Made by a program: the position numbers and the translations under genes. From Gemmatimonas phototrophica (GTDB lineage: Bacteria > Gemmatimonadota > Gemmatimonadetes > Gemmatimonadales > Gemmatimonadaceae), in assembly GCF_000695095.2 (NCBI RefSeq), contig NZ_CP011454.1, positions 806,001-870,000 on the forward strand: a stretch of DNA of 64,000 bases. The letters run 5' to 3'. A model generated the notes under the pieces. The model was not told where the DNA came from. It made no database searches and worked only from the letters and a program-made list of their open reading frames with translations. Shown one piece after another: positions 17,562 to 52,542 of the stretch (positions are counted from its first letter, which is position 1; each line of letters begins with the position of its first letter).

Positions 17562-19649
17562 ATGTCAAACTGTTCGCCTGTAACCACTTACAAGCTGCCG
17601 TGCCGCAGTGTTCGCCGCCTGTCCCGGGCGGCGTTGCTGGCATGCGGTTTGGGGGTGTTGCACGCGTGCAGCGGCGCCGATGCACTGTCGCCTGAAGTCG
17701 GCAATCCCTCGGCACCCACACCGGTCCCGTCGGACCCGGTTCGTATTGTGGCCGTTGGTCCGGACACCCTCGTTGCCGGCAGCCTGCTTGTGGTAGAAGG
17801 GGAGAACATTCCCGCCGACGCCGCAGTGACCGTCACGGTGGGCGGCCAGGCATTGCCCATCCGCGCCCAATCGGCCACCCGTTTTGAAGCCCTGTTGCCG
17901 GTAGGCGCTTTTCCCTGTGGGGCCACGGCCGCTCACACGGTGCAGGTGCAGGTGGGGGCGACCGTATTCGAAGCCCGGCGCCCGCTGCGAACGGCCCAGC
18001 GGGTGGCGCTGGAGGCAGGGCAGAGCATCAGCCTGCTGGATGCGCAGCCCTCTCGCTGTGTTGAGCTGGCCCCGGCGGCCGTCGGTGAGAACGCCCGCTA
18101 TGTGGTGGCAGTGGTGAATACCTCTACCACGGCCGGAAATGTGGCCAGCTTTGAGCTGCGTGGCATGAGCGCCGCGGCCTCAGGCGCTCCAGCCAGCGGC
18201 TTCATTGGCGGAGCGACCAGCGGGTTGCTGGCCACCCCGTCCATTCCGCTCTCCACGCCGGCACTCACGGCGGCACGCCGAGTGCTTGAGCAGATGCCGG
18301 CCGCTGAAGCGGCCCACGGTGCGCGGTTGGGCGCACAGCGCTCACGCCTCACGCAGGCTGGCAGCGCGGTGTCAGCCTGGCAACTGGCGCGTAGCCGCTC
18401 TTCGCTGCTGCTGGGGGGAGGCGCCTCAGCCGCCGCCCAGCGGTTTGCCATGGTAGGCGATACGCTCACCCTCATGGCGTCGGCCAGCAGTTGCAATACC
18501 GGCAAGGCCGTTCGCGCGCGGGTGGTGTACGCCGGCAGCAAGGCGGTGGTACTGGAAGACATCACTGCCATGCGTGCCGGCACCATGGATGGGCAGTACC
18601 GCAAAATTGGTGGCGAGTTTGACAGCGTGGTGTACCCGCTGTTGCAGCAGAATATTGGCGACCCGCTGGCCATGAACGCGCAGCTGAGCGGCGATGGCCG
18701 GGTGACCATGTTGTTCACGCGTTTTGTGAACGACTCGCTCCCAGGCACGGCGGCGTTTGTGAACGCCTGCAATTTTTACCCGCGCAGCACCTTTGCCGCG
18801 AGCAACCAGGACGAAGTGTTCTACGCCCGGGTGCCCGGTGCGTGGGAGACGCCCGAGGAATGGCGCCGGGCCATTCGCGCCAGTGTGGTGCACGAGGCCA
18901 AGCATCTGGCCAGCTTTGCCGAGCGCATGTCGCGCGGCGTGCAGTTTGAGGAGCCGTGGCTGGAGGAAGCCACGGCGCGCATTGCCGAGGAGTTGTATGC
19001 CCGCACGTTTCCAGGGGGCGGGAGTTGGAAGGGCAATACCGGCTTTGCCAGCAGTGTAGGGTGCGAGCTCACGCAGTGTGACGACCGGCCGCTGATCATG
19101 TGGAAGCACTTCTCAGTGCTGCATCAGTATTTGCGGGGGGCGGATACGTTGTCGCCGCTGGCTCCTACGGGCGCCAACGACAACACGTATTACGCCAGTG
19201 GCTGGTCGCTGGTGCGGTGGATGGTCGATACGTACGCGTCGAACGAATCCACTTGGCTCAAGGCTCTGGTGCGCGGAGATGGTGGCCTGGTTGGAATGCC
19301 TGGCCTTGTGCAGCGTACCGGGGCATCGGTACCAGCGCTAACCGTTGGCTGGGCGGTGGCCAACCTGCAGGCGTCACAGCGTGAAACCCCAGGGCAGGTC
19401 AATTCGCAGAGTTGGAACCTGGCCGATCACTGGACGGGTATGTCCACGGTTTTCCCGGGGGCGTTTAGCTCGGAACCCATACGAAAAATTACCCCCCCCG
19501 TTCTAGGCGAAGGTGGTATAGTCGTCCGCCAAATCGCACTAGGGGTCAGCTTCTTTGGGGTAACTGCCACAGCATCGGAACCGCTGGTTCTGGGGATTCA
19601 TGGAAGAGAGAGCTACGCCCCCTCATTCGCCATAATACGCAGTCGGTAG
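17562..19649 (+). CDS. Lipoprotein, putative M30-like zinc metallopeptidase
   Basis: A 695-residue secreted protein. The N-terminus is a lipoprotein signal ending in Leu-His-Ala-Cys36, then an Ala/Ser-rich stretch with an IPT-like beta region. A gluzincin signature follows: His444-Glu-Ala-Lys-His448 (HEAKH) and, about 20 residues on, WLEEATARI with candidate third ligand Glu468 or Glu469. The catalytic glutamate is Glu445. M30/hyicolysin-like peptidases share the HExxH...E arrangement, but the family call is tentative because the rest is not recognised. The first residues before the signal could be trimmed by a later start. It probably sits on the outer membrane. The gene is alone, 149 bases before the toroid-formyltransferase gene. 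Confidence 0.6.
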   Translation: MSNCSPVTTYKLPCRSVRRLSRAALLACGLGVLHACSGADALSPEVGNPSAPTPVPSDPVRIVAVGPDTLVAGSLLVVEGENIPADAAVTVTVGGQALPIRAQSATRFEALLPVGAFPCGATAAHTVQVQVGATVFEARRPLRTAQRVALEAGQSISLLDAQPSRCVELAPAAVGENARYVVAVVNTSTTAGNVASFELRGMSAAASGAPASGFIGGATSGLLATPSIPLSTPALTAARRVLEQMPAAEAAHGARLGAQRSRLTQAGSAVSAWQLARSRSSLLLGGGASAAAQRFAMVGDTLTLMASASSCNTGKAVRARVVYAGSKAVVLEDITAMRAGTMDGQYRKIGGEFDSVVYPLLQQNIGDPLAMNAQLSGDGRVTMLFTRFVNDSLPGTAAFVNACNFYPRSTFAASNQDEVFYARVPGAWETPEEWRRAIRASVVHEAKHLASFAERMSRGVQFEEPWLEEATARIAEELYARTFPGGGSWKGNTGFASSVGCELTQCDDRPLIMWKHFSVLHQYLRGADTLSPLAPTGANDNTYYASGWSLVRWMVDTYASNESTWLKALVRGDGGLVGMPGLVQRTGASVPALTVGWAVANLQASQRETPGQVNSQSWNLADHWTGMSTVFPGAFSSEPIRKITPPVLGEGGIVVRQIALGVSFFGVTATASEPLVLGIHGRESYAPSFAIIRSR

Positions 19650-19798: not shown

Positions 19799-21853
19799 AT
19801 GATCCAAAGAATTAAGCCAATCGCCAGAGTCCTGCGCGATACCGGGTTCTTGCGGTCCGGAAATGCATCACTCCTGCTGAATCAAGTGGTTGGCATCAGG
19901 CGCTATCAGGGTCGGGATATTGACTATGGTGTACATATGCGCGCCGCTGCTGCGTGGCTTGAGCGCGCGCAGGATGCCACGTCTGATGGCGGCATTGTCG
20001 GGCGATACAGCCTCCGCAATGGATGGTCGTCATCGTATCCTGAAACGACGGGATATCTGGTACCTACACTCTTGGCGCTGGCCACATCGCTCAATGCGCC
20101 TCGATTTGTGGAACGCGCCAAGCGCGCCATTGATTTCCTGCTGACGGTCCAGCTGCCAAGCGGTGCGTTCCCTGGCGGAGAGGTCCACGAGAACACCAGC
20201 GTGCCATCGGTCTTCAATACCGGGCAGATTCTCAATGGCTTACAGGCATGGCACGCGCACTCGCACGACCAACGTGTGCTGGATGCGGCAATACGTGCGG
20301 CAGAGTGGCTTTGTACGGTGCAGGATACTGACGGCGCCTGGCGGCAGCATATCTACAATGGCCTGGTCACCACTTACACGACACACGCCTCCTGCTGGCT
20401 CGCGGAGTTTGGCCAATACACGGCCGAGCCGAGATATGTGCGTGCTGCGGAGCGGCACATGGATTGGGCGCTCAGTCATCAGGACGCTGAGACCGGATGG
20501 ATTGATCTCATGGGGTTCTCACCGGACGACCATCGTGCAAGGCAAGGGGTCACGCACACGATTGCCTACACGTTATGGGGGGTGCTGGCAACGGCGGAAG
20601 TCTGTGGCCGCACCGATGCCATTGCTGCTGTTACCAAGGCCGCTGAGGGCATCCTGCGTCGTGTCGAGCTGTCCGGGACATTGCCCGGCATTCTGAACCG
20701 TAATTGGCGTAAGGCGTCTGATTTCACATGCCTGACAGGTAACGCGCAGATGGCACTGATCTTTCTGCGTCTCTATAGCGGCGACAATGATCCAAGAAAA
20801 CTCAACGTGGCCTTGCGACTCATCGATGCCGTCTGCGGGGCACAGCAGCTTGACCATGGCAATCCCGGTGTCCGCGGCGGAATCGCAGGGTCGTTCCCTG
20901 TCTGGGGCAGCTATATCTACGCGTCGCTGCCAAACTGGGCAGCCAAATTTTTCATTGATGCCGTGCTCATGGCCGAGCGTGCGCTGGCAAAGGTGCCCAA
21001 CAGAGAGCCGTCGCCCGTCGAAATCCCAGAACACATTCCACGCGCGCTACCCGAGGTGGTGGCTGCGACGGGGAGCGCGCCACTGCGAATGGTGATGTTG
21101 GCATCGCCGTATGTGCACAAGGTGACGCAAATGGTGGAAACGTGGCGCTCGCTGGGTATTCGCCCCGTTGCCGTGCTCATTGAAGCACCCGCAGCCAAGA
21201 GTCGGCAGGAGCGGCTGCTCACGCGTGCTCGTGACGATGGCTTTGAGCCAATACTCGCACGCCTGCGTGGAAAGTCAGGGCCATCGTGGCCGCTAGGTGA
21301 TGCGGAAGATTGGGAAACGGATGTGAAAGCCTACTGTACCCGCGAGGACATCCCATTTACTACCGTATCGTCATTGTCGGAGCCGGAGGCATTGCAGTTC
21401 ATTCGCTCCCAAACTCCCGATGTGCTTGTCCATGCGGGCGCGGGGCTCTTGCGCGCTCCCCTTTTGGAAATCCCCCGCTTGGGCACCATCAATGCCCACA
21501 TGGGGCAACTCCCGTGGTTCAGGGGCATGAACGTCACGGAGTGGGCCATATTCTCCAAGGCGCAGGTGGGCTGCACGGTGCATCTCATAGATCCCGGTAT
21601 TGATACGGGCGACATTCTGTGCGTGCGTAATGTGGACGTGCAGGGGGCACGCTCTCTCGCGGATGCCCGGAAGCGTGTCGACGCGGCGCAGGTGCAACTG
21701 CTTGGAGAGGTACTCGCGTTTACTGCGCGGTCCGGTATGCTCCCTCCCCGCTTTTCTCAGCAGGTAGCGCAGGGCCGCCAGTACTTCCGCATGCACCCCA
21801 AGCTGCGTGCGATCATGGACGCGGAAATGCGCACGGTGGTAACGTCGTCATAG
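19799..21853 (+). CDS. Alpha/alpha-toroid protein fused to a formyltransferase domain
   Basis: A 684-residue two-domain protein. Residues about 25-400 form repeated helix pairs of the alpha/alpha-toroid class (squalene-cyclase/lyase-like), with motifs such as VQLPSGAFPGG, VQDTDGAWRQH and HQDAETGWIDL. Residues about 415-640 are a formyltransferase: TINAHMGQLPWFRG holds Asn565 and His567, and GIDTGDIL holds Asp602, matching the N-H-D triad spacing of methionyl-tRNA and sugar formyltransferases. Formyl transfer from 10-formyl-tetrahydrofolate to an amino sugar is the likely reaction. GAGG lies 8 bases before ATG 19799. The 3' end overlaps the leftward GT4 gene by 6 bases. The fusion is unusual and the toroid's ligand is not known. 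Confidence 0.78.
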   Translation: MIQRIKPIARVLRDTGFLRSGNASLLLNQVVGIRRYQGRDIDYGVHMRAAAAWLERAQDATSDGGIVGRYSLRNGWSSSYPETTGYLVPTLLALATSLNAPRFVERAKRAIDFLLTVQLPSGAFPGGEVHENTSVPSVFNTGQILNGLQAWHAHSHDQRVLDAAIRAAEWLCTVQDTDGAWRQHIYNGLVTTYTTHASCWLAEFGQYTAEPRYVRAAERHMDWALSHQDAETGWIDLMGFSPDDHRARQGVTHTIAYTLWGVLATAEVCGRTDAIAAVTKAAEGILRRVELSGTLPGILNRNWRKASDFTCLTGNAQMALIFLRLYSGDNDPRKLNVALRLIDAVCGAQQLDHGNPGVRGGIAGSFPVWGSYIYASLPNWAAKFFIDAVLMAERALAKVPNREPSPVEIPEHIPRALPEVVAATGSAPLRMVMLASPYVHKVTQMVETWRSLGIRPVAVLIEAPAAKSRQERLLTRARDDGFEPILARLRGKSGPSWPLGDAEDWETDVKAYCTREDIPFTTVSSLSEPEALQFIRSQTPDVLVHAGAGLLRAPLLEIPRLGTINAHMGQLPWFRGMNVTEWAIFSKAQVGCTVHLIDPGIDTGDILCVRNVDVQGARSLADARKRVDAAQVQLLGEVLAFTARSGMLPPRFSQQVAQGRQYFRMHPKLRAIMDAEMRTVVTSS

Positions 21854-26616: not shown

Positions 26617-28746
26617 TCAGTTGCGAGTGCTGCCAAACGTTCGTGCCAAACCCTCATTGGCTCCCACTCGGGGCGTCCAGTTCAGGAGGCGCTGCGCCAA
26701 GCTGACGTCAACGGGATGCAGTGGACGTAGCGCGCGGACCCGATAACGAGAGAGAGGAAGCGAGCGTTTGGCGATCTTTGACAGCACATCAACCATACCT
26801 CCCACAGCCAGCAAGACCCACTCCGGTACACGGCGGATCTTGGCAGTTCCGAGAAATGGTCGGGCAGCGGCAAGAAACTGATTCTGATCTACCTTCGCGG
26901 GATCGATGATGTTGATGGCGTGGCCAACAGCCGCATCAGCGGTTGCTGCGCTCAGTAAGGCGTCCACTACATCATCCACGTAAACAAGGGGAAGGGCACG
27001 ACCGCCGTTTCCGGAAATCACCAGGTTGCTGCCAAGTCTGATGACGCCATTGGGTGTCGTACCTTCGGTGCCAGGGCCGAAAATTTGTCCGGGTCGAATG
27101 ACGACGACCTTCAGTCCACGCTCCCTAGCGGCATCAAGCACGATCTTTTCCGCTTCCAGTTTGGCACCGCTGTATACGCCCCGTAGATCCGGGCGTGGTT
27201 CAAACGCAGAGTTTTCCGTGACGGGAACCTTCTGGTCACGTCCCGCGTGATCGAAAATTCCGCACGAACTGACATAGACCAAACGTTCTACACCGTGGCG
27301 TATGCAGGCGTCCACCACGTTCTGCGTTCCGATAACGGTGCCAGCCTGAAACTCGAGCGCTCCCCCCTTCATCGCGGCACCGACATGATACACGGTCCGC
27401 ACGCCGGCAATGGCGCGGTCTACAACATCTGGCTCTCCCAAGCTGCCAATAACCGCGTTTAGCCCAAAGGCGGGTGAGGATGCACTCGCCGGCCGCCGCA
27501 ACAGTACCCTGGGATGTTCCCCAGAATCACGCAGTCGGTGAAGGAGGGCACTCCCCAGGAAGCCGCTCGCACCGGTAACGAGAATTTCCGCAGCCGTAAC
27601 AGGTGCAGTTTTACGAGCGTGCTCAAGAGCGGACTTTGCTTCGTCTGCAGACTGGGAATAGCGGGTTACCAGATCCACGGCGCGGCGCGCCGCATCATGC
27701 GCGACTGGCGGCGGCGCCTTGGTCGCCAATGCTTCGTAGAAGGCGTGTACCGCGTAGTAGATGCCCGCCGAGGGTTTGGACCGTCCCGAGACGACACTCA
27801 GAACATTCGCGGGAATGCCGGCTACACGGCGAATGGCGTGGCGAAAACCATTGATGGCGGCCTGGAGCTGCGCTGGCCCCGGATACGTCGCGTGAAACTC
27901 ACAACGATTAAGGAATCCGTCAACGTGGAGGGCCCCTTTAGTACCGTGTACCCAGAACTCGTTTCGAATGGGGCGCATGTTCCATGACAACAGCACGTTG
28001 GCCGTAGCCTTCCCGCACCGAGCGGAAAGACGCCACTCATCGAACGTGAGCATGGGATCCTTGCCACTGGAATGATGCTCAACATTCATGCTGTCAATTG
28101 GCCCAAGACACTCTTCAATAAGGTACAGGGCATGTACGCCGAGGTCCCTGAAGGGATACGAGCCTTGGGAGTGCACGGCGGTTGGAGGTCCGCCCGCGTA
28201 CGCTGGATAATCAGACCCGCGGAAGTAGGTAAGGCTGACAATTTCTCCACAGTCCCCTCGCTTGAGACGCGCAATAGCGTCGGCAAACAGCGGGTCAAAA
28301 ATCATTGAGTGGTTCACCGACAGAAGCTTGCCAACAGATTGAGCACGCGCAATCATGCGGTCGCACTCCTCAACTGATTCTGCCATGGGCTTCTCCACAA
28401 AAACATGGCAGCCCATGTCCAACGCTTTGAGTGTTTGCTCACAATGACTTGCCGGTGGAGTCAGAATATGAATGACGTCCAGCTTCAGCTTCACGAACTC
28501 ATCAATGCCACTCACTGCGTTCGGAATGTTGAATGTGCCAGCCATTGCCACGGCGCGCGCTACGTCTGGATCACAGATGCCGATGACTGAAACGTGTGGC
28601 AAGTCGCGTAAGGCAATGAGGTGACGGGAGGCGACATAGCCAGCGCCAACCACCCCGACCCTCAAATTACGAGTAACTTCGGAACTCAAAGGAAGAATCT
28701 CACAAGAAGAGAATGTTGACGTCGAAATGAGGAAGTGCCACTGCAT
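26617..28746 (-). CDS. Gfo/Idh/MocA oxidoreductase fused to NAD-dependent epimerase/dehydratase
   Basis: A two-domain enzyme of about 709 residues. The first half is a Gfo/Idh/MocA oxidoreductase: GAGYVASRH nucleotide site and HVFVEKPMAES, which has the conserved Glu-Lys-Pro. The second half is an extended SDR: GASGFLGSALL and the Tyr-x3-Lys of YSGAKLEAEK, with VIRPGQIFGPG. Together they could carry out two consecutive steps on a nucleotide sugar. ATG 28746 is used as the start; a TTG at 28689 sits closer to the first Rossmann strand and may be the true one. It converges with the quinoprotein gene, 11 bases apart. Such bifunctional proteins occur in exopolysaccharide clusters; the substrate is unknown. 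Confidence 0.8.
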   Translation of the reverse strand: MQWHFLISTSTFSSCEILPLSSEVTRNLRVGVVGAGYVASRHLIALRDLPHVSVIGICDPDVARAVAMAGTFNIPNAVSGIDEFVKLKLDVIHILTPPASHCEQTLKALDMGCHVFVEKPMAESVEECDRMIARAQSVGKLLSVNHSMIFDPLFADAIARLKRGDCGEIVSLTYFRGSDYPAYAGGPPTAVHSQGSYPFRDLGVHALYLIEECLGPIDSMNVEHHSSGKDPMLTFDEWRLSARCGKATANVLLSWNMRPIRNEFWVHGTKGALHVDGFLNRCEFHATYPGPAQLQAAINGFRHAIRRVAGIPANVLSVVSGRSKPSAGIYYAVHAFYEALATKAPPPVAHDAARRAVDLVTRYSQSADEAKSALEHARKTAPVTAAEILVTGASGFLGSALLHRLRDSGEHPRVLLRRPASASSPAFGLNAVIGSLGEPDVVDRAIAGVRTVYHVGAAMKGGALEFQAGTVIGTQNVVDACIRHGVERLVYVSSCGIFDHAGRDQKVPVTENSAFEPRPDLRGVYSGAKLEAEKIVLDAARERGLKVVVIRPGQIFGPGTEGTTPNGVIRLGSNLVISGNGGRALPLVYVDDVVDALLSAATADAAVGHAINIIDPAKVDQNQFLAAARPFLGTAKIRRVPEWVLLAVGGMVDVLSKIAKRSLPLSRYRVRALRPLHPVDVSLAQRLLNWTPRVGANEGLARTFGSTRN

Positions 28747-28793
28747 CGATTGAGAGCAGTGGCATTTTGTTTGATTTCTCGTAGGTGGAAGGC

Positions 28794-31037
28794 CTATCTT
28801 GAGCCAAGCCACCGCCAAGACATTTGGTACTGCTGGTTGAACTGTTTGCCCCAGTTGACAAAGGCCTTCTCCGCCCCGCCTTGGAAAACGGCATCTCCGT
28901 AACTTCTGAGCTGAGGATTACGCGTACGTCGATGTAGCCAGCCAATACCATCAAGAAATAGGCCGTTGAGATCCGGTGCAGCGCTAGGTCCACCGTGCCC
29001 CGTACAAGTACCTGAGTAATAATTGAAGGATCGGTCGGACGTACGCCACTGACTCGCGAAAAGAAAATCCACTGCTTTCTGAACCGATGGCTGAATCCGA
29101 ACGTCGGGACTCACGTTGTCATGATATTGGCCTAAAACACCGATCAGGAGTCCGATGGTGTAGTTGGACGCCTCCCCGCATTGGCTTTTGAAACGCCATG
29201 ATCCATCGGTTCGCTGCATGGAAAGCATGTCGCGGAGGTTATTCGCGGCCGCTACCTTGATATCAGCGATGCCAGGTGAGTTCGACGTAGCAAGGGTAGA
29301 TGTCGCTCCAAGCATGATCGAGAGCACTTTTGTCATTAGGACACGAGCATAAACACGGGCGTCCATCCAAGGATGGTCAGGGTTGGTGATACGGACAGTT
29401 GTACCTCGATAGAACTCGATGTTTGATGCTACTCGAAGAATGGTGTTCCGTGTTGAGTCATCACCAGTCAACCAATAATGAACAGCCATGCCATCGATTC
29501 CTGCCTGCCACTCGGGAAGTCCGTAGTTGTTTGGGACGACATATTCATCCCGAAAGCGCCTTGTTAAAAGCGACGCGCGGGCAAACAAGATAGGGTTCCC
29601 GGTACGCGCCCAAAAACCATAAAGGGCGAGAATGCGGTCGTAGAAGTTCGTGCTATACGACGGTTCAGTGCTGGCCGAGTGAATAGCCTCGAACGTGTCA
29701 AACTTGCTTTCATATGTCGTAAAAAAGGTCGGCGAAGTAGGCGACGCACTGCGCGGCAACGTTGGCCCCACAATGCCTGTCGCAATCAACTCCGGCAGAG
29801 ATTCATAGCGCACAATGGCATCGGGCACTGCCGTAACGGGCGCCTTGGGCAACGAGCCTGCGGTCCGTCCCGAAAACTCCAGTAAGACGGGCGCGGTGGC
29901 CGCAGTTGCGGGCACGGTGAACTGAAGCAAAACCGAGCGCAGTGAGCCATCGGGGTGGGTACCGAGCAGCGCCGAGGCGTGACGTGGTATTTCCGTGCCA
30001 TTCACCAGCAGTCGCAGCGAACCTACGTCGGCGGCCCGCAGCCGCCCCGGCGCCATGGGTACGCCGGCCGACACATTAATGGTGGCGGGTACCGTCGCGG
30101 TGAGCACATTCACCCGCAGATTGATCCCTGACTGGCTCCCTGGGGTCGTGACCAGCACGGTCTGCTTGGCCGTAACCGCACCACAGGTGGCCTGCAACTC
30201 TCCGCTCCCTGCCGTACCGCCGGTGACCGTGACCGTCGCGCTGGTGGAACTTCCCAGCAGCAGTACACCCGCCGGCTGCGCCGACCACACAATGGTGGCA
30301 CAGGGAATGGCCGCCCCCTGACTATCCCGGAAGCTGGCTGTTGCCTGGCTCCCCTGTCCATTCACCAGAGAGGCCGGCAGCCCCGTTATCGTGCCGGTGG
30401 ACGCAACCGAGCGCACCACCAGTCGGTGCACGGTGGTACGGCCAAGGGTGGCCACGGAAATGTCTGCCGTTCCGGCGCTCGTAGCCGTTAACGTCCCTTC
30501 GGAATACGACGCTACGGCACCGTTGCTGGTGCTCCAGAGCCCACGCTTGGTGGTCAACCGGCCAAACCGGGCGCTGTTCACCGCTGCCGAGAGCGCGAAT
30601 CGCTGCCCTACCAGTACCGTGTCCGGGAGCCCTTCAATGCGCATACTGCTGATGCTGTCGGGATGCAGCACCCACACCGGGCTCGAACGCGTGCCGGTCG
30701 TGGACGATACGAGTAGCTGGTCGGACGACTGCACCGCCCGTGACGCCACCAGCACACTGTCCCCATTGCGTGACGCCCGCACAGCAAACGACCCGGCCGC
30801 ACTGGCCGCCCGGCCGCGCGCCAGCAGCAGTTTGTCGGTACCGTTCAACAGCACCGTAGCCGCACTGCGGGTGAGCAGAATGACGCTGTCGCCCAAAGCA
30901 GCCGGCGGATCAACCGACAGCAGCTGCGCGCCGGCCGGAAAATCGGCGTAGCTGTCAACGTCATCATTGGCCACGGTGGCCACGGTGTCTGCACCGCACC
31001 CCGCCAGCACCAATGCAATGATGGTCGCACGTGCCAT
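28794..31037 (-). CDS. Outer-surface lipoprotein with Ig-like repeats and C-terminal helical toroid
   Basis: A protein of about 747 residues. ATG 31037 gives a short lipoprotein signal (LVLAGC14). Residues about 30-330 are beta-rich Ig-like repeats of the BIG type (RLTTKRGLWSTSNGAVASY, LTATSAGTADISVATLG). The C-terminal part (about 470-740) is mostly helical and repeats, with MQRTDGSWRFKSQ and FLFASQWRTSDRSFNY resembling the DGSW pattern of alpha/alpha-toroid lyases and hydrolases. The order suggests a surface-anchored protein that binds or processes a polysaccharide; catalytic residues were not identified. The reading frame extends upstream, but those residues look non-coding. A second protein with a toroid is at 19799-21853. 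Confidence 0.65.
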   Translation of the reverse strand: MARATIIALVLAGCGADTVATVANDDVDSYADFPAGAQLLSVDPPAALGDSVILLTRSAATVLLNGTDKLLLARGRAASAAGSFAVRASRNGDSVLVASRAVQSSDQLLVSSTTGTRSSPVWVLHPDSISSMRIEGLPDTVLVGQRFALSAAVNSARFGRLTTKRGLWSTSNGAVASYSEGTLTATSAGTADISVATLGRTTVHRLVVRSVASTGTITGLPASLVNGQGSQATASFRDSQGAAIPCATIVWSAQPAGVLLLGSSTSATVTVTGGTAGSGELQATCGAVTAKQTVLVTTPGSQSGINLRVNVLTATVPATINVSAGVPMAPGRLRAADVGSLRLLVNGTEIPRHASALLGTHPDGSLRSVLLQFTVPATAATAPVLLEFSGRTAGSLPKAPVTAVPDAIVRYESLPELIATGIVGPTLPRSASPTSPTFFTTYESKFDTFEAIHSASTEPSYSTNFYDRILALYGFWARTGNPILFARASLLTRRFRDEYVVPNNYGLPEWQAGIDGMAVHYWLTGDDSTRNTILRVASNIEFYRGTTVRITNPDHPWMDARVYARVLMTKVLSIMLGATSTLATSNSPGIADIKVAAANNLRDMLSMQRTDGSWRFKSQCGEASNYTIGLLIGVLGQYHDNVSPDVRIQPSVQKAVDFLFASQWRTSDRSFNYYSGTCTGHGGPSAAPDLNGLFLDGIGWLHRRTRNPQLRSYGDAVFQGGAEKAFVNWGKQFNQQYQMSWRWLGSR

Positions 31038-31284
31038 GTGACTGAATCCCGATCTAGACGTCTTGGCGCACAGGCCACCGTTCACGACGCGCAGGCTGAA
31101 CATCAGATACTTCCGGTCTGGGGTGCCAACTGCTTGCTCATGAGATAGACGAGGTCTACTGCATGGGGCAACTGGCGTCCTGTGACGGTTGATACCATTT
31201 GGGCCACTATTTTCGTAACATGGGTGAATTCCCCCGTCACGTGAAGAAGAAGTGTGACGGATCCTGCAAACTTCCTCAGGCGCA

Positions 31285-32388
31285 ATGAACGCTCCCCCGC
31301 ATGTGGGTCTGGTTCTTCCATGGTTGGAAATTGGTGGCATGGAGCGGTTCGTCATCTCCCTCGCCGCCGCGCTTTCCTCACGCGGGTGGAGGACCACCAT
31401 TTACTGCACCCAGCGGGGCGGGCCGCTGCTCGCCGCGGCAGCAGACCTCAATATCGAAGCTAAAGTACTGCCTTTCGAAACCAAGTGGGATAATCTGGCG
31501 CCGCGTCGGCTCATTCGGGAAATGCGTGCCGACGGCATACAGCTGGTGCACTCCCAAAACGGCAACTGGCTCGCGGCGGCTGTGGCTGCCAGGTGGCTCA
31601 ATATCCCTCTGCTTCACACCGAACACGGGTTGGAAGGACCGCGGGAGCACTGGAAGTTGGTGCTCCAGAAGCGGGCTGCTGCCGCTCTCACGGGCCGACT
31701 GGTGGCCGTGTCGCAGAGCCTGCAGCGCCAGCTCAAGGATCAGCTTGGGCTTTCGCTCAGTCGTATTCAGGTCATTCCCAACGGCATCGACACCGCCGTT
31801 TACAGGCCGGATGCTGCCGCCCGCCAGAGTCTGCGGCAGGAACTGGGGATAGGCCCCGACACCGTGCTCATTGGTGCACTGGCCCGCTTGCATCCGCTCA
31901 AGGGCATTGATGTGTTGGCCGAAGCGGCGGCACTCATTCCGGCAGAGACGCCGGTGGCCATTGTCGTGGCCGGTGACGGTGATGAGCGGACCCGAGTGGA
32001 GGCCATTGCCGCCCGAAGTGCCGTGCCATTCAAGCTGCTGGGCATGCGCAGTGACATCGCCCGGTTATTGCAGGGGTTCGACGCGCTGGTGCTCCCCTCT
32101 CGCTCCGAGGCACTTCCCATTGCCCTGCTGGAAGGCATGGCGAGCCGCCGACCCATTATTGCCACCTCGGTGGGCGAGATGCCACACATTGTACAGGCCG
32201 GTGCGGGCCTGGTGGTACCACCACAGAACCCCGCCGCTCTGGCGAAGGCCATTGTTGAAATGGTACAACAACACGAACGCCGTGCTGCGTTTGGCAGCAC
32301 GGCGTCGGCAATTGCAGAAGAGCGGTTTGGCATTACCGCCATGGTCGATTCCTACATCCAAGCGTACCACGACCTGCTGAACCGTTAG
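31285..32388 (+). CDS. Glycosyltransferase family 4 (GT-B)
   Basis: A 367-residue GT4 enzyme: VLPWLEIGGMERFV at the N-terminus, VIPNGIDTAVYRPD, ALARLHPLKGIDVL and the EX7E stretch RSEALPIALLEGMASRRPIIATS. The gene starts 247 bases from the divergent lipoprotein gene and ends 36 bases before the convergent epsI. Donor and acceptor are not known. Confidence 0.9.
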   Translation: MNAPPHVGLVLPWLEIGGMERFVISLAAALSSRGWRTTIYCTQRGGPLLAAAADLNIEAKVLPFETKWDNLAPRRLIREMRADGIQLVHSQNGNWLAAAVAARWLNIPLLHTEHGLEGPREHWKLVLQKRAAAALTGRLVAVSQSLQRQLKDQLGLSLSRIQVIPNGIDTAVYRPDAAARQSLRQELGIGPDTVLIGALARLHPLKGIDVLAEAAALIPAETPVAIVVAGDGDERTRVEAIAARSAVPFKLLGMRSDIARLLQGFDALVLPSRSEALPIALLEGMASRRPIIATSVGEMPHIVQAGAGLVVPPQNPAALAKAIVEMVQQHERRAAFGSTASAIAEERFGITAMVDSYIQAYHDLLNR

Positions 32389-32424: not shown

Positions 32425-33093
32425 TCAGCTGCGGGGAGACGCCGGCATTACGGCATCCACCGCCGGAATGAGGCGGGCGGCCACCGACATGGCCACCGAA
32501 TCCGCTCGCTGCACCACGGCCTCGTCGCCCTGGGCAATGTCTTTGGGGGTGCTCAGCGGTACCACAATGCGCACCAGCGCTTCTTCCGTACGTCCGTACG
32601 ACGCCGCATCGCGCAGCAAGTCCCACTTGACCTTGTACTCGTTCGATTCAATACGACCGCGCCCCTGATACCAGTAATACACCAGCGCCCGGCTCCCCTT
32701 GTTGGCGAGCATGACACGGTTCATGGTTTCCCCGGCGCGACCGGAGGGCGCCGCTACCGGCGCCGTGTTGAGAATCTCCCAGCCGGCGCCCGGCAGGCAG
32801 TTCTTGGGCGAGTGAATGGACTTGCCCTGCACCTGACGGTCGTAATATCCCACGTACGCCGTAAAGAGCGCACTCGAATCCATCTCATACGAGCGCAGCA
32901 TGTAGTCGGACATGCCGGCCACACGGCGCTCTTCGTCGGCCACCACGATATCGCGCGCGGTATAGCCGGGAATGTCCATGGACACGTTGTTCATGGGCGC
33001 CTTGGATTCCACCGCGTACTGCTCGCGCATGCCCGATACGAGCAGTACACCCAGCCCGAGCGCCGCTGTTGGCACAAACACCGAGATGCGCAT
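32425..33093 (-). CDS. epsI: EpsI-family exosortase-associated protein
   Basis: A 222-residue protein, DUF3485/EpsI type: a membrane or signal helix at residues about 5-22, then the soluble domain with the family signature HSPKNCLPGAGW and YYWYQGRGR. In many bacteria this domain is fused to the C-terminus of the exosortase; here it is a separate gene. Its ATG follows the exosortase TGA directly (stop 33094-33096, start 33093), so the pair is co-translated. EpsI proteins act in exopolysaccharide production with the PEP-CTERM system, but their enzyme activity is not settled. Confidence 0.9.
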   Translation of the reverse strand: MRISVFVPTAALGLGVLLVSGMREQYAVESKAPMNNVSMDIPGYTARDIVVADEERRVAGMSDYMLRSYEMDSSALFTAYVGYYDRQVQGKSIHSPKNCLPGAGWEILNTAPVAAPSGRAGETMNRVMLANKGSRALVYYWYQGRGRIESNEYKVKWDLLRDAASYGRTEEALVRIVVPLSTPKDIAQGDEAVVQRADSVAMSVAARLIPAVDAVMPASPRS

Positions 33094-34056
33094 TCAGAGA
33101 GCTCCTGTAGCCGTTGGACGCCGCAGCACCAGCCGTTCACCCTGTCCTAGTAACCATGCGGCAATCGACGTGAAAAAGAACGCCGCCCCAAACATCAGCA
33201 TCCCTTCACTGGTGTGCATGAAACCCTGACCCATTTCCGGGCTTACGAACAGCACCAGGAAGCCCGTGAGGAATACCCGGAACCCGTTGATCAGAATGGC
33301 AATGGGAATGGCGATGAGCACCAGCAGCACCCGTGTAGGCCACTTCTCCAGAAACATCGCGCCCAGCAGCACGCCGAGGCTGAGCAACGCGGTCAGTGAC
33401 CGCAACCCACTGCACGCTTCAGCCACGAACAGCTCCTGGCCGGGAATGCGAATCACGTTGCCGCTCATCATGACCGGAATCTCCCGCCATTCCAACAGCG
33501 ATGCCCCAATCTTGGAGGCCGTAAACTGCAGCGGCAGCGCCACCGTGTTCAGAATGACTTCCGGAATGGGGATGCTGAGCGACACCAGCGTAAACGGCAG
33601 CCACCAATGCAACAGCTGCTTGAAGCCGGCGTGCCACACCACCAGGCCACCCAGCGCCATGACCATGCTACCGCGCATCACGAACAGCTCGGCCGCCAAA
33701 TCAGCGGCGTAGCGGAACAGCACCGCCGCGACAATCATGGAAATGCCCAACGCCCTGTTGGGTGAGGTGTTCTTGGCCGAGCCACTCTTGTAGGCAAACC
33801 ACAACGACAACGGAGCCAGCAGCAGCCCGTGCCCTGAATTGGGGTCGTTCCACCAGGCGTCCAGCAACAGGTTGAACGGCTTGGCAAAGAGCAGCGCAAA
33901 CATGACCGCCGTAAGCACATGCGCCGCCAGCTCGGCGGGGGCCAGCGCCTTGGCGTTCGCCACCAAGGCGCGCAGGTCCCGCAGCACCTCGTCCAGCGCC
34001 GAGGGCGCGCTGGGTGAGCTGCTGGAGGCGGGGGCAGTCGTGGCGGGACTCGTCAC
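33094..34056 (-). CDS. Exosortase (PEP-CTERM transpeptidase-like protease)
   Basis: A 320-residue integral membrane protein with about eight helices. The three expected catalytic residues lie in conserved boxes: Cys215 in AEACSGLRS, Arg260 in NGFRVFLTG and His281 in HTSEG. This is the exosortase fold that cleaves at the PEP motif of exported proteins, and a candidate substrate tail is at 1-75. Residues 1-40 are a low-complexity Ser/Ala/Pro/Leu cytoplasmic tail. It is directly upstream of epsI with no gap. Polysaccharide genes flank it on both sides, the usual setting for this system. The exosortase subtype was not assigned. Confidence 0.93.
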   Translation of the reverse strand: MTSPATTAPASSSSPSAPSALDEVLRDLRALVANAKALAPAELAAHVLTAVMFALLFAKPFNLLLDAWWNDPNSGHGLLLAPLSLWFAYKSGSAKNTSPNRALGISMIVAAVLFRYAADLAAELFVMRGSMVMALGGLVVWHAGFKQLLHWWLPFTLVSLSIPIPEVILNTVALPLQFTASKIGASLLEWREIPVMMSGNVIRIPGQELFVAEACSGLRSLTALLSLGVLLGAMFLEKWPTRVLLVLIAIPIAILINGFRVFLTGFLVLFVSPEMGQGFMHTSEGMLMFGAAFFFTSIAAWLLGQGERLVLRRPTATGAL

Positions 34057-34176: not shown

Positions 34177-37100
34177 TCAGGTAGCCACCAACGTGGCGGT
34201 AAAACGCGGGTCGTTTACGGTATGACCGGCCCGGGTGGCGTAATCGGCCAACTGGTCGGGGAGTACCTTCCCTACCCCGAAGTAGACACTTTCGGGGCGC
34301 CAGAAGTACCACCCGCTCACGCTGGCCGCCGGATACATGGAAAAACTCTCGGTGAGGGTCATCCCGGTCCGGTCTTCGACCTCTGCTACAGCAAAGAGAG
34401 TGCCCTTCTCCCGGTGGTCCGGGCAGGCCGGGTACCCCGGTGCCGGGCGAATGCCCTGGTACGTCTCCTTGATGAGGCTGTCGTTGTCCAACTGCTCCCC
34501 GGTGGCATACCCCCAGAACTCCGTCCGAACCCGTTGGTGCAGCCGCTCGGCAAACGCCTCGGCAAGCCGGTCGGCCAGCGCCTTGGCCATAATGCTGCCG
34601 TAGTCGTCGTGCGCCGCCTCAAACTCCGCCACCAGGCTTTCCAACCCGTGGCCGGTGGTCACCGCAAAGGCGCCCATATAGTCGAGCACGCCACTGTCAC
34701 GCGGGGCGACAAAGTCGGCCAGGCAATGATTCGGACGACCGTCACCCTTCTTGTCGAGCTGCTGCCGCAGCATGTGTAGCGTTGCTGCAACAGTCTCGCG
34801 GCTGTCGTCGGTATACAACACGATGTCGTCGCCCACCGCGTTGGCCGGCCAGAAGCCAAAGGCGGCCCGGGCCTCTATGCGCTTCTCGCGCTGCATACGC
34901 CCCAGCAGCTCCTGCGCGTCGGCAAAAAGGCTGCGCGCAGTGGCCCCCACCACCGGGTCTTCCAAAATGGCGGGGTAATGCCCCGCCAGCTCCCAGGTCT
35001 GGAAGAACGGCGTCCAGTCGATGTACGGCACCAGGTCTTCCAGCGGATACGGCGCCAGCGTGCGCGGGCCGGTAAAGGTGGGCACCGGCACCGGCACACT
35101 GAGGTCAATTTTTGCCTTGTTGGCGCGTGCGGCTTCAATTGGAATGAGACGCTCCGCCCCCCCACGTGCCGCCCGCGCCTCACGAATGTTGGCGTATTCG
35201 GCGCGCACGCCCTCCACATACGCGCCCCGGCGTTCGTCGGATAGCAGACTGCTGGTAACGCCCACCGCGCGCGAGGCATCGAGCACGTGCACCACTGGGC
35301 CGCTGTATACCGGCTCAATCTTGAGGGCGGTGTGGGCCTTGCTGGTGGTGGCGCCGCCAATGAGCAGCGGAATGGTGAAGCCCTGTCGCTCCATTTCACT
35401 GGCCACAAAGCTCATCTCTTCGAGGCTGGGCGTAATGAGGCCGCTCAGGCCAATCACGTCGGCGTTCACCTCACGGGCCTTATCCAGAATGGCCGCGCAC
35501 GACTGCATGACGCCCATGTCCACCACTTCGTAGCCGTTACACTGCAGCACTACGCCCACGATGTTCTTGCCAATGTCGTGTACGTCGCCCTTTACCGTGG
35601 CCATGAGCACACGCCCCACCGGCTTGGTATCGGCGGTCTTGAGTGCCTCAATGAACGGAATGAGATGCGCCACGGCCTTTTTCATGACGCGCGCACTCTT
35701 CACCACCTGCGGCAGGAACAGCTTGCCGGCGCCAAAGAGGTCACCCACCACGTTCATGCCACGCATGAGCGGCCCTTCAATGACCTCAATGGGGTGGTTC
35801 ACCGTGGCCCGCGCCTCTTCGGTGTCTTCCACCACGAAGGCGTCAATGCCGTGCACCAGTGCGTGTGTGAGCCGTTCGTCTACCGGGAGCCGGCGCCACG
35901 CCACGTCTTCTACCGCCTTGGCGCGCCCCTTTACCTGGTCGGCCACGTCCATGAGCCGTTCGGTGGCATCGGGGCGGCGGTTGAGCACCAAGTCTTCCAC
36001 CCGCTCGCGCAGGTCGGCAGGAATGTCTTCGTACGGGACCAGCTGGCCGGCGTTCACAATGCCCATATCCATACCAGCCTTCACGGCATGGTACAGGAAC
36101 ACGGCGTGAATGGCTTCGCGCAGCGGGTTGTTGCCGCGGAAGGAGAAGCTCACGTTGCTTACACCACCGCTGATCTTTGCGTACGGAAGCGTGGCCTTTA
36201 TTTGCCGAGTGGCTTCAAAGAAGGCGTTGGCATAGTCGGCGTGTTCTTCAATGCCGGTGCCAATGGCAAAAATATTGGGGTCAAAAATGATGTCCTGCGG
36301 CGGGAAGCCCACCCGCTGCGTGAGCAGGTGGTAGGCGCGTGTACAGATCTCCACTTTGCGCGCTACCGTGTCGGCCTGCCCCTGCTCGTCAAAGGCCATC
36401 ACAATCACCGCCGCCCCATACTGCCGCACCAGCCGGGCCTGCCGCAGGAACTCCCCTTCGCCTTCCTTGAGCGATATGGAGTTCACAATGCCCTTGCCCT
36501 GCAGGCACTTGAGCCCCGCCTCAATGACGCTCCACTTGCTGGAGTCCACCATGATGGGCACGCGCGAGATATCGGGCTCGCTGGCCACCAGGTTCAAAAA
36601 GGTGACCATGGCGTGTTGGGCGTCGAGCAGCCCCTCGTCCATGTTCACGTCAATAATCTGGGCGCCGCTCTCCACCTGCTGGCGGGCTACCACCAGCGCC
36701 TCGCTGTAGTTGCCCTCCAGAATGAGCTTGGCGAAGCGCGCCGAACCGGTCACGTTGGTGCGCTCACCCACATTCACGAAGTTCGTGGTGGGGCCTACGG
36801 TAAACGGCTCGAGGCCGCTGAGGCGCAGCAGCGGGTCTACGGTGGGAATGACTCGGGGGTCTACGCCCTCCACGGCCCGGGCAATGGCGCCAATATGCTC
36901 GGGGGTGGTGCCGCAGCAGCCGCCCACGATGTTCAGCAGTCCACTGCGCGCCCACTCGGCAATGTGCTCGGCCATCATCTCCGGCGACTCGTCGTAGCCC
37001 CCGAAGGCGTTGGGGAGCCCGGCGTTGGGATGGGCGCTGATGTGGCAGTCGGCAATGCGGCTGAGCTCCTGCACATAGCCGCGCAGCTGGGCCGCGCCGA

Positions 37101-37875
37101 GGGCGCAGTTGAGGCCAATGGAGACCGGGCGCACATGGGCCATGGAGGCCCAGAACGCCTCGGCCGTCTGCCCCGAGAGGGTGCGGCCGGAGGCGTCGGT
37201 AATGGTGCCCGAAATCATGACCGGGAACCGGGCGCCCGTTTGTTCGAAGTACGTCTCGACCGCGAACAGCGCCGCCTTGGCGTTCAGCGTATCGAAGATC
37301 GTTTCTACCATGAGAATGTCGGCGCCACCGTCTACGAGGCCCCGGGTGGCCTCGAGGTAGGCGTTGACCAGTTCGTCAAAGGTCACATTGCGGGCGCCCG
37401 GGTTCTCCACTTCGGGGGAGATGGAGGCGGTGCGGTTGGTGGGGCCCAGTACGCCGGCCACCCAGCGGGGGCGGGCGGGGTTCTGGGCCTCAAACTCGTC
37501 GCACACCCGGCGGGCGAGGGCGGCCCCGGCCACGTTGAGCTCGTAGGAGAGCGCCTCCATGCCGTAGTCGGCCATGGAGATGGCGTTGGCATTGAAGGTG
37601 TTGGTTTCCAGGATGTCGGCCCCGGCCGCCAGGTACTCCCGGTGCACGCCGGCCACGAGCTCCGGTTGCGTGAGGACGAGGAGATCGTTGTTGCCTTTGA
37701 GATCCCGGTGCCAATCGGCAAAGCGAGTGCCCCGGTAGTCGGCCTCGGTAAGGCGGTGGCGCTGGAGCATGGTGCCCATGGCGCCGTCGAGGACGAGGAT
37801 GCGGGTGGCGAGGGCGGCGGAAAGCTGTGCCGCGCGCGCGTGATTGGTCAGTACGTCAGAGGCGGTATTCGACAT
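34177..37875 (-). CDS. metH: Cobalamin-dependent methionine synthase
   Basis: A 1232-residue, complete four-module enzyme that makes methionine from homocysteine and 5-methyl-tetrahydrofolate. Residues 1-340 are the homocysteine-binding module (DGAMGTML; zinc cysteines in the [13 protein letters not shown] end). About 350-640 bind methyl-tetrahydrofolate. The cobalamin cap and domain follow, with the B12 ligand His in [11 protein letters not shown] near residue 765. The C-terminal third is the SAM reactivation domain with a conserved [14 protein letters not shown] 37875 is used because it gives the first typical residues; the frame is open upstream without family sequence. Its start is only 16 bases from the divergent homocysteine methyltransferase start. 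Confidence 0.95.
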
Positions 37876-37891
37876 ATCTTGAAAGCTATCT

Positions 37892-39796
37892 ATGACTACC
37901 GTTTCTGAGCAGCACATTGCCGCGAATTCCCTGGCCGAGGATTCCCCTCGCGCCGCCTTACTCACGCGCCTGCTCGACCCGGAGCAGGTGGTGATGTTTG
38001 ATGGCGCCATGGGCACCATGCTGTACGCCAGGGGCGTATTCATCAATCAGTGCTACGACGAACTGGTACTGCGCAGTCCGGACCTGGTGCGTGAAGTGCA
38101 CGCCGCGTACGTGAAGGCGGGTGCCGAGGTGGTGGAGACCAACACCTTTGGCGCCAACCGCACCAAGCTGGCGCAGTACGGGTTAGAGGGGCAGGTGGTG
38201 GCCATCAACCAGCGTGCGGCGCAGGTGGCGCGCGAGGCGGCTGGCGAGGCGCGGCTGGTAGCGGGCGCGGTGGGTCCGCTGGGCGTACGGCTAGAACCCT
38301 ATGGCCCTACCAGCCGTGATGAGGCGCGTGGGCTATTCCGTGAGCAGATGCAGGCGCTGGCCAGCGGCGGTGCCGATTGTTTTGTGCTGGAGACGTTCGC
38401 CGACCTCGATGAGCTGGAACAGGCCGTGCTGGCCGCGCGCGAGGTGAACGCCGCCATGCCGGTGATTGCGCAGGCCACCGTAGGGCCGGAACTACGTACG
38501 GCCTTTGGCGCCACACCGGAAGACGTGGCGCGGGTGCTGGACAAGTGGGGCGTGGACGTGATCGGGCTGAACTGCTCAGTGGGTCCGCAAACCATTTTGG
38601 AGGCCATTGAACGCATGGCCGCGGTGACCCACAAGAAGCTCAGCGCCCAGCCCAACGCCGGTATGCCGCGCGATGTGGGCGGGCGCACCATGTACATGGC
38701 CAGCCCGGAGTACATGGCGTCGTACGCGCGCCACCTCATTCAGGCGGGAGCCAAGATCATTGGCGGCTGCTGCGGTACCACCCCTGAGCATGTGAAGGCC
38801 ATGGTGGAGGGGGTGCGCCCACTGTCACCGCGCACACGCGTGCAGGTGGGGGCAACGCGCGAAGCGGAGGTGAGCGGCGAACCGGACAAGAGCCGCGAGC
38901 CGGTACCTCTCGCGCAGCGCTCACGCTTTGGCGCCAAGCTGGCGGCCGGGCAGTTCGTAACCAGCGTGGAGATTGTTCCGCCGCGTGGGGTGGACACTGT
39001 AAAGCTGGAGCATGACGCAGCTGCACTGGCCAAAGCGGGCGTGGACGCCATCAACGTGCCCGACGGACCACGGGCGCAGAGCCGTATGGGGGCCATTGCC
39101 ACCAGTCTCATTATTGAGCGGCATGGCATTGAGGCGGTTACCCACTACGCCTGTCGTGACCGCAACTTGCTGGGGATGCTGAGCGACCTGCTGGGCGCGT
39201 CGGCGCTGGGGCTGCGCAACCTGCTGCTGGTAACTGGTGACCCGCCCAAGATGGGGCCGTATCCTGATGCCACGGCGGTCTTTGACATTGACGCCATTGG
39301 GCTCACGAACCTGGTGCGGAACCTCAACCGCGGCATGGACCCGGGAAACAACCCCATTGGCGACCCGACGCGCTTTGTAATTGGCGTGGGGGTTAACCCG
39401 GTGGCCATTGATCCGGCGCATGAGCTCAAGCGATTCCACTGGAAGGTGGAGGCGGGGGCGGAGTACGCCATTACCCAGCCCGTTTTTGACCCGGCGCAGC
39501 TGGAGTCATTCCTGGAAAGCATTCACGATGTGCGTATTCCCGTGGTGGCGGGCATTTGGCCGCTGGTGAGCGCGCGCAACGCGGAGTTCCTTGCCAACGA
39601 AGTGCCGGGGGTGACAGTGCCTCAGGAGATTCTGGATCGTATGCGCCGGGCCAACGAGAAGAGCAAGGAGCATGCGCTCGCCGAGGGAATTGCGATTGCC
39701 CGTGAGGCGCTGGATCGTGTGCGCGGATCAGTGCAAGGCGTACAGGTGAGCGCGCCGTTCGGGAAGATCGAATACGCACTCGAAGTATTCGGTTAA
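37892..39796 (+). CDS. Bifunctional homocysteine S-methyltransferase / methylenetetrahydrofolate reductase
   Basis: A 634-residue YitJ-like fusion. Residues 25-305 are a homocysteine methyltransferase (DGAMGTML, zinc-site [10 protein letters not shown]). From about 330 on is a 5,10-methylene-tetrahydrofolate reductase with the FAD-site and folate strands ([30 protein letters not shown]). It can make methyl-folate and move a methyl group to homocysteine, backing up MetH. It starts at ATG 37892, with a GAAAG 9 bases upstream, and is divergent from metH with 16 bases between the two starts. The ATP-grasp gene follows 10 bases after its stop, so this gene may lead the next polysaccharide block. 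Confidence 0.92.
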
Positions 39797-43812: not shown

Positions 43813-44721
43813 ATGTCCTCTGATACGCCTCTTGTCAGCGTCATTATTCCGTTTCGGAACGATGAGGCTACGATTATTTCCGCGCTCGACTCGGTATTTC
43901 AGCAAACTTGGCCCGCTGTTGAGGTTTTGCTTTGCGATGACCGGTCAGACGATCGCTCAGTGGAATTGGTTAGGGAGCGGCTTTCGCAGAACAATCGACA
44001 TGAGACCCAACTATTGTTGGCCGTTGGGGCGGGAGCGGCTGCTGCTCGAAATACGGCAATTAAAGCCATGCGCGGAGACTATGCTGCATTCCTTGATGCT
44101 GATGATCTGTGGTTCCCGCAAAAGTTAGAGCGGTGTATGGCCGAGTTGCTGTCGAGGGAGGTTCAGGTCGTCGGTCATGCCGAAGAATGGCGTCGTGAAG
44201 GGCATCCCGTTAAGGTAGTGCGCTATCGTCAGCTGCTAAGCCCGGATGTGCCATTGCCATTGAGCGTGTACCGCCAAAATCCCTTTTCGACGTCGGCCAT
44301 TGTCGTCCGACGGGAGGCGCTCATGGCCGCAGGATCATTCGACGAAAAGCTGCCAAGCGCCGAAGACTATGACTATTGGCTCCGCCTCGTGCTGGTGCCT
44401 GGAGTCCGTGTGTCCATCCTCGATGATGTGCTCGGCGTATACACCCTTCGCGAAGGAAGCGAGAGCTCACGGGTACACGCCAGACACGAGGCCATGCTGA
44501 CCATTGGGGCACGGTACGCGGCAATTGTCGCCGCCGGAAGGCTATTGCCGAAGTTGGAGCATTGGCGATATCGGTCCCGCGTTCGACTCTCGTCGGGGGT
44601 GCGATTTTTTGCGTCGGGGAAAAGAGTGCGGGGCTTGGGACTCGTTGCAGTAGCCTTGTTGCTGTGGCCTTTCCGAGGCGATGTGGTGCGACATCTGCTT
44701 GCTAGGTGGCGCAGCGCATGA
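43813..44721 (+). CDS. Glycosyltransferase family 2 (GT-A)
   Basis: A 302-residue GT-A enzyme with VSVIIPFRNDEATI, LLCDDRSDDRS and FLDADDLWFPQ. A GGAGAG ribosome site precedes ATG 43813. Its last bases overlap the start of the polysaccharide deacetylase gene (ATGA at 44718-44721), which suggests translational coupling of glycosyl transfer and deacetylation genes. It is related in layout to the GT2 gene before it but is not a close duplicate. Confidence 0.9.
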   Translation: MSSDTPLVSVIIPFRNDEATIISALDSVFQQTWPAVEVLLCDDRSDDRSVELVRERLSQNNRHETQLLLAVGAGAAAARNTAIKAMRGDYAAFLDADDLWFPQKLERCMAELLSREVQVVGHAEEWRREGHPVKVVRYRQLLSPDVPLPLSVYRQNPFSTSAIVVRREALMAAGSFDEKLPSAEDYDYWLRLVLVPGVRVSILDDVLGVYTLREGSESSRVHARHEAMLTIGARYAAIVAAGRLLPKLEHWRYRSRVRLSSGVRFFASGKRVRGLGLVAVALLLWPFRGDVVRHLLARWRSA

Positions 44722-45593
44722 GCACTTCCTCGTTCGTCCATGCCTTCACGGTAGACGTGGAGGAGTATTTTCACGTCAATGCGTTCGAACCGTTCATTGA
44801 TCGCTCGGCGTGGGAGACCTTCCCCACTCGAGTCGGAATTGGGATGGATCTGTTGTTGGATATGCTCGCGCGTCACAACGCCACAGCGACCTTTTTTGTG
44901 CTGGGGTGGGTGGCCGAACGTCAACCGGCCATTTTGAAGCGCATTGTGGACGGTGGGCACGAGGTTGCCTCGCACGGTTATTGGCACCGCCGTGTGGTAA
45001 CGGAAACCCCACAGGCGTTTGCCCTGGATGTACGTCGCGCGCGCGACGTCATTGAGCAGATCACTGGAAAGGCCGTTCAGGGCTACCGCGCGCCGAGCTT
45101 CTCCATCATTCGGGCCAGTGAATGGGCACTCGATATTTTGGCAGAGACCGGGCATCTCTACGATTCCAGCCAGTTTCCCATTCGGCGGCCGGGCTACGGT
45201 TCACCGCATGTGGCCCTCAATGCCCATCTCGTAAATACGGCGTCGGGCCCTCTCATGGAGGTACCGTTAACGGTGTGGGAGCTGTTGGGCATGCGACTCC
45301 CGGCCTCTGGCGGCGGGTGGTTTCGGCAATTTCCCGAGTGGGTCACGCTGGCGGCCTTTCGCCATTGTGCGGCCAACGGAAGAGCGGGGAACTTCTACAT
45401 CCACCCTTGGGAGCTGGACGCGCAGCAGCCCAGGCAACCGGTTTCGCTTGTGACCAGCGTGCGACATTACCGTGGCATTGAGGAAACGCCTGCGCGACTG
45501 GAGCGCCTGCTTGGCGCACTCCAATTCCGCAGTATCTGCGAAGTACACAATGCGCTGTTGTCGCAGGTGATGGGAGCGCCGCGGCATGTCTGA
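44718..45593 (+). CDS. Polysaccharide deacetylase of the exosortase-A-associated type
   Basis: A 291-residue NodB-fold enzyme that removes acetyl groups from sugar amines. The motifs are AFTVDVEEYFHV (catalytic Asp and metal Asp), EVASHGYWHRR (metal His pair) and GYRAPSFSII (Arg and Pro). The opening DVEEYFHV string is the hallmark of the deacetylase family that accompanies exosortase clusters. It has no signal peptide visible, so it may act on precursors in the cytoplasm or on the inner-membrane face. ATG 44718 overlaps the previous stop. The FemAB-like gene overlaps its 3' end by 8 bases. Confidence 0.88.
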   Translation: MSTSSFVHAFTVDVEEYFHVNAFEPFIDRSAWETFPTRVGIGMDLLLDMLARHNATATFFVLGWVAERQPAILKRIVDGGHEVASHGYWHRRVVTETPQAFALDVRRARDVIEQITGKAVQGYRAPSFSIIRASEWALDILAETGHLYDSSQFPIRRPGYGSPHVALNAHLVNTASGPLMEVPLTVWELLGMRLPASGGGWFRQFPEWVTLAAFRHCAANGRAGNFYIHPWELDAQQPRQPVSLVTSVRHYRGIEETPARLERLLGALQFRSICEVHNALLSQVMGAPRHV

Positions 45594-52414: not shown

Positions 52415-52466
52415 TGTCATCACCAATGTGAAATTGCCCAGAATCACCAAGTAGAATTGCACACTT
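52415..52466 (+). repeat. IS21 left terminal repeat
   Basis: Begins TGTCATCACCAATGTGAAATT and includes the inner repeat AAGTAGAATTGCACACTT. It mirrors the right end with moderate identity; the innermost AGAATTGCACACTT is identical to the inner repeat of the right end read on the other strand. Confidence 0.82.
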
Positions 52467-52542
52467 GGGAGCTTTCCTGCGGGGCCCTCCGCGGGCCTCG
52501 TGCCGACGCGACCTTGGTCTCTTCCCGTCGGGGAGGAGACTG

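Follow-up and report, generated by a model that had tools for sequence, protein, structure and literature searches.

The window analysed here, a stretch of 64,000 nucleotides from Gemmatimonas phototrophica, contains on the plus strand at positions 19799-21853 a single ORF of 684 amino acids, in which an (α/α)6 toroid domain is joined to a formyltransferase (FT) domain. A GAGG ribosome-binding motif lies shortly 5′ of its ATG. The toroid comprises 12 helices (residues 43-401; 19925-21001, plus strand) and was recognised in the AlphaFold2 model, by fold matches and by the six-hairpin and SQHop models of Pfam. It is followed by a linker (residues 402-428; 21002-21082, plus strand), delimited from the secondary structure of the model, and by the FT domain (residues 429-684; 21083-21850, plus strand), identified by Pfam PF00551 and by PDB matches to ArnA, Fmt and WbkC. 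AlphaFold2 modelling of the full-length fusion, based on aligned homologues both fused and separate, predicted both folds with high confidence (mean pLDDT 94.5, pTM 0.93; pLDDT about 98 in the toroid); since the pTM of 0.93 extends across two domains, their relative placement is also predicted with confidence. Modelled by itself from one sequence, the toroid gave a poor model (pLDDT 46), which was left out. The preliminary description of this gene, a toroid of some 400 residues fused in one ORF to an FT, was confirmed by Pfam, conservation and the AlphaFold2 model, including the domain boundary, the toroid ending at about residue 401 and the FT beginning at about residue 429.

An assembly error or frameshift as the source of the fusion was ruled out, because the G. 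phototrophica genome is a single contig of 4.7 Mb and because the fusion was found in one frame in eight other genomes (L034, L035, L036, L037, L038, L042, L047 and L115). A phage origin was also rejected; none of the viral contigs searched encoded a relative, and BFVD yielded only generic fold matches. Just upstream of the fusion gene lies a lipoprotein-like ORF of 695 amino acids with a HEAKH motif and no Pfam match (17562-19649, plus strand).

The FT domain matched Formyl_trans_N (PF00551) over residues 509-638 with 59.6 bits against a cut-off of 26.1. The Asn-His-Asp triad proposed from the sequence proved intact: in about 50 homologues N565 and H567 (21491-21499, plus strand) were invariant and D602 (21602-21604, plus strand) was 96% conserved. 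P572, R575 and G576 were invariant as well. ArnA, Fmt and WbkC ranked as matches in Foldseek searches with the C-terminal domain, and PDB entries 4xcz and 4xd0 (TDP-3-aminoquinovose N-formyltransferase), which we take to be those of QdtF, were among the matches of the FT domain. Scores stayed below the equivalog cut-offs of methionyl-tRNA formyltransferase (Fmt, 51 against 201.5 bits) and PurN (44.9 against 150.1 bits), and the fusion protein was far under the cut-off of the ArnA NCBIfam equivalog. PF00551 matched the genome three times, namely in the fusion gene, beside a PurH-like frame and beside an RsmB-like frame; from these neighbours, which were judged by eye, the latter two genes were assigned as PurN and Fmt. 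The fusion is therefore the sole sugar-type FT of the PF00551 family in the genome, so that the earlier claim of no other sugar FT in the window holds genome-wide for this family. The C-terminal domain is a putative sugar N-formyltransferase, an assignment supported by the exopolysaccharide locus and by the separate PurN and Fmt genes. It shares the FT fold, the triad and a polysaccharide locus with the sugar N-formyltransferases WbkC, PseJ, VioF, QdtF and the N-terminal domain of ArnA. Accessory parts known from such enzymes are a decarboxylase in ArnA and ankyrin repeats in QdtF; to our knowledge, no sugar N-formyltransferase described so far has an (α/α)6 toroid as a fused or translationally coupled partner.

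The window carries the marks of an exosortase-A (XrtA/PEP-CTERM) polysaccharide locus. The exosortase EpsH is encoded at 33094-34056 (minus strand) together with DUF3485 (32425-33093), and an XrtA-system polysaccharide deacetylase (TIGR03006) and a FemAB protein (TIGR03019), both above the NCBIfam cut-off, at 44706-46617 (plus strand). A DegT-type aminotransferase (PF01041; 46586-47800, plus strand) matched several models of sugar aminotransferases weakly; it may supply the amino sugar for formylation, its link to the fusion being drawn by inference. Long ORFs of 868 and 873 amino acids without a Pfam match flank the exosortase genes (28794-31400, minus strand; 35287-37908, plus strand). In the same locus a Gfo/Idh/MocA oxidoreductase and an NAD-dependent epimerase follow each other in one ORF (26617-28818, minus strand), which is an unusual fusion, and an integrase-core (rve) transposase-like ORF lies by the polysaccharide genes (52465-53574, plus strand).

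Fold comparison of toroid residues 37-402 with VIA-align placed AGE-type (N-acylglucosamine 2-epimerase/cellobiose 2-epimerase) epimerases and unsaturated glucuronyl hydrolases level at Z about 28-32. These families, the AGE/cellobiose 2-epimerases and the GH88/GH105 unsaturated uronyl hydrolases, share the (α/α)6 toroid with the fusion but differ from it in the invariant residues and in its coupling to N-acyltransferases, and the single proteins tested showed no sequence relationship. Pfam models of the toroid clan exceeded their cut-offs in the N-terminal half (SQHop_cyclase_C, 36.7 bits; GH127, 35.3 bits). The best PDB sequence matches of the toroid were partial repeats of squalene-hopene cyclase, and sequence profiles linked it only to such partial repeats and to similar proteins. 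Lone toroids bear the database label 'Prenyltransferase/squalene oxidase repeat-containing protein', which reflects the repeats only; haloarchaeal plasmid homologues under this label matched the toroid at 39-42% identity. Membership in three families was rejected. For squalene-hopene/terpene cyclases the score was 33.4 against 322.7 bits and the DxDD motif was absent from the conserved columns, leaving only the QW repeats; GH127 β-L-arabinofuranosidase passed its cut-off (35.3 bits), but the Cys cluster for Zn is missing, C311 being the lone conserved Cys; and LanC-like cyclases need two Cys and one His as zinc ligands, whereas the toroid has one conserved Cys. At the sequence level the toroid matched no known enzyme family, AGE and GH88 being compared through one protein each; nor was an assigned function found that would make the N-terminal part a known accessory domain, the case that the preliminary description had named as refuting its idea.

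An AGE-type epimerase or isomerase acting on an N-acylated sugar would fit the fold match (Z about 32 over 340 residues, rmsd about 3.2) and the known action of AGE enzymes on N-acyl amino sugars. The Z score is, however, tied with that of the unsaturated glucuronyl hydrolases, PF07221 was not among the Pfam matches of the protein, and profile comparison by hhalign gave a probability of 1.4% for one AGE protein (0.6% for one GH88 protein). H253 on helix 8 is conserved, but a second conserved His on helix 12 is absent in the FT-partnered toroids, which carry N379, W380 and K383 there. Ring opening in AGE-type epimerisation also requires a free reducing end, and we consider an AGE-type activity improbable.

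Conservation pointed to a pocket. In 73/73 FT-partnered toroids, and in nearly all others, 24 positions were identical: Y80, P81, E82, T84, G85, Y86, F139, N140, Y193, H253, Y257 and G261 in the first half and C311, T313, G314, Q317, G360, G364, S365, P367, Y372, W380, K383 and D387 in the second. All 12 AAC(3)-partnered toroids (see below) matched these positions except at S365 and K383. The motif YPETTGY (residues 80-86; 20036-20056), whose Y80, P81, E82, T84, G85 and Y86 were kept in 73/73 and 12/12 toroids, lies at the N-terminus of helix 2; in the toroid alignment it is followed by F139-N140 (20213-20218) at that of helix 4, H253-x-x-x-Y257 (20555-20569) at that of helix 8, C311-x-T313-G314-x-x-Q317 (20729-20749) at that of helix 10, S365-x-P367 to Y372 (20891-20914) and W380-x-x-K383 (20936-20947) at the N-terminus of helix 12, all on the plus strand. 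Most of the 24 positions fall at N-terminal ends of the six inner helices, the place of the active site in (α/α)6 enzymes, which argues for a working pocket in the toroid. Its predicted residues (Y80-P-E82, N140, Y193, H253, Y257, C311, T313, Q317, Y372 and K383) are near-invariant whatever the partner. The search for candidate catalytic residues thus yielded a putative pocket, its geometry being derived from the secondary structure of the model together with conservation, that looks catalytic or ligand-binding; the earlier idea of one polypeptide reading a glycan and formylating it stands as a hypothesis.

The distribution of the toroid was surveyed in the best 80 loci of a genome scan; the query held both domains, so that the pairing rates are biased upward and represent an upper estimate. 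Seven of the 80 loci encoded the toroid-FT fusion in one frame, and in 55 of 73 an FT gene adjoined a separate toroid gene, directly downstream in 53 loci and upstream in two. With start codons placed by homology, the gap to the 53 downstream FT genes was -20 to +68 bases, most of them overlapping the toroid gene. The fusion is hence not singular: toroid and FT form a gene pair that is conserved across phyla, here in fused form. Plasmid searches retrieved only lone toroids or lone FTs and no pair.

Searches with the toroid profile alone, made against the bias of the two-domain query, covered the order of Thauera, the class of Sphingomonas and the Gemmatimonadota. In the order of Thauera the toroid occurred in 17 of 250 genomes, with FT as partner in eight, an AAC(3)-type N-acyltransferase (NAT) in six, neither in three and both in none. 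Four of the six NAT genes were directly downstream of the toroid, in the slot of the FT, and two upstream; the gene immediately upstream of the toroid was CapK in all eight FT cases and in three of the six NAT cases. AAC(3)-type NATs (FrbF, YokD, AAC(3)), which replace the FT as toroid neighbour in a sister clade, are acyl-CoA-dependent and their fold is unrelated to that of FTs. The toroid was rare in the class of Sphingomonas (6/289 genomes). Among 298 Gemmatimonadota genomes, 24 encoded a toroid, as the FT fusion in just two cases, the window and one further genome; most of these toroids had no FT neighbour, which indicates that the toroid can act without FT. A GT4 glycosyltransferase was fused to the toroid in one frame in four loci of a single Gemmatimonadota clade (L008, L129, L131 and L132), including one from the earlier search. 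The toroid is not FT-specific, as AAC(3)-type NAT neighbours and GT4 fusions also occur. Next to three toroids (L088, L128 and L130) FemAB/GNAT-like frames were seen by eye.

The range of partners, and the fusion of the toroid to both FT and GT4, would be expected if the toroid were not catalytic but a recognition or scaffold domain, offering a sugar or lipid-linked glycan to a swappable FT, AAC(3)-type NAT or GT4. QdtF provides a precedent, being a sugar FT whose helical ankyrin-repeat domain binds a second nucleotide sugar. Against this, a scaffold would not need invariant E, H, Y, K, N, Q, T and C at the inner-helix N-termini, and we regard this role as rather unlikely, if the most serious of the alternatives.

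In Proteobacteria the toroid-FT pairs belong to exosortase-A exopolysaccharide operons that run XrtA amidotransferase (TIGR03108), stp2/stp3 GT4s, CapK, toroid, FT and PEP_O_lig_1, the pair lying between CapK and the O-ligase. Around CapK and wzy/O-ligase, the gene order of the psc1 cluster of Rubrivivax gelatinosus S1 agrees with that of these operons (PMC3684757). Unlike the pair-bearing operons, psc1 clusters carry no toroid or FT between CapK and wzy: the published table has no row for either and places wzy directly after CapK in all three species listed (PMC3684757). Since CapK there runs straight into wzy, the pair looks like an insertion that exosortase-A operons can do without (PMC3684757). 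Polysaccharides of this type matter for flocs and biofilms, and a transposon screen in Rubrivivax implicated the psc1 cluster in the formation of biofilms (PMC3684757).

Among 130 toroids placed in a tree, one large clade had mostly FT partners and the other AAC(3) partners. The FT fusion required at least two changes on this tree (in the main clade and in L047), the GT4 fusion one. The toroids closest to that of the window came from MAGs of Planctomycetota and Gemmatimonadaceae. Of 29 genomes from the same genus no further one carried the fusion, and the only other toroid among them belonged to a different clade, from which we conclude that the fusion gene was probably gained horizontally. 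Distances of toroid and FT were correlated over 63 pairs (r=0.96; 0/300 permutations as high), showing that the two are co-inherited. In 30 loci with CapK the toroid-FT correlation was 0.79 against 0.42 for toroid and CapK; in the strictest 22 loci both were about 0.85, so that there the toroid correlates equally with CapK. The QW-type repeats, which match squalene-hopene cyclases, could mean that the toroid is the degenerate relic of a glycoside hydrolase, lyase or terpene cyclase, fused by accident; this is very improbable given a pocket near-invariant across phyla and partners, a fusion kept by distant genomes and pairs that are co-inherited.

Our preferred reading, to which we assign a probability of roughly 0.55, is that the fusion is a bifunctional cytosolic enzyme of exopolysaccharide synthesis whose toroid binds, and probably modifies, the same sugar that the FT formylates. 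As is known for its family, the FT domain would take the formyl group from N10-formyl-tetrahydrofolate and place it on the free amine of an amino sugar that a nucleotide or lipid carries. The toroid would bind the same intermediate in the pocket at the inner-helix N-termini and probably alter it chemically, before or after N-acylation, and fusion or translational coupling would hold both steps in one complex; two consecutive steps on one intermediate are the simplest model. FTs need cytosolic N10-formyl-tetrahydrofolate, which should place the fused toroid in the cytosol too, with nucleotide- or lipid-linked sugars, and not exported polymer, as its substrates. That an acyl-CoA-dependent NAT can take the place of the FT next to this toroid suggests a sugar amine that becomes capped as the feature in common, and the toroid probably works with enzymes capping amino groups on sugars bound for the cell coat. 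The cytosolic site, the shared substrate and a role of the toroid as an enzyme beyond a binding module are what we infer from these patterns. More tentatively, and at less than even odds, the toroid may found a new family of cytosolic enzymes modifying glycan intermediates, with an obligatory N-acylation of their product or substrate, hence the interchangeable formyl-tetrahydrofolate- or acyl-CoA-dependent NATs and, in some lineages, a bifunctional polypeptide.

Both folds are known; what is new is the exchange of partner between FT and AAC(3)-type NAT, and possibly an enzyme family in the toroid. No description of the toroid-FT pairing, the fusion, the acyltransferase exchange or the toroid family was found in the literature covered, which lay mostly outside subscription journals. 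The finding points to N-formyl groups decorating some exosortase-A polymers, and the toroid, conserved but unnamed and with a pocket both specific and near-invariant, is a likely enzyme; the fused protein would let both activities be assayed at once. In several Acidobacteriaceae the toroid-FT pair is followed by a heparinase II/III-like gene and a zinc-dehydrogenase/Gfo-Idh fusion gene (L104, 9921-12119 and 12119-14359).
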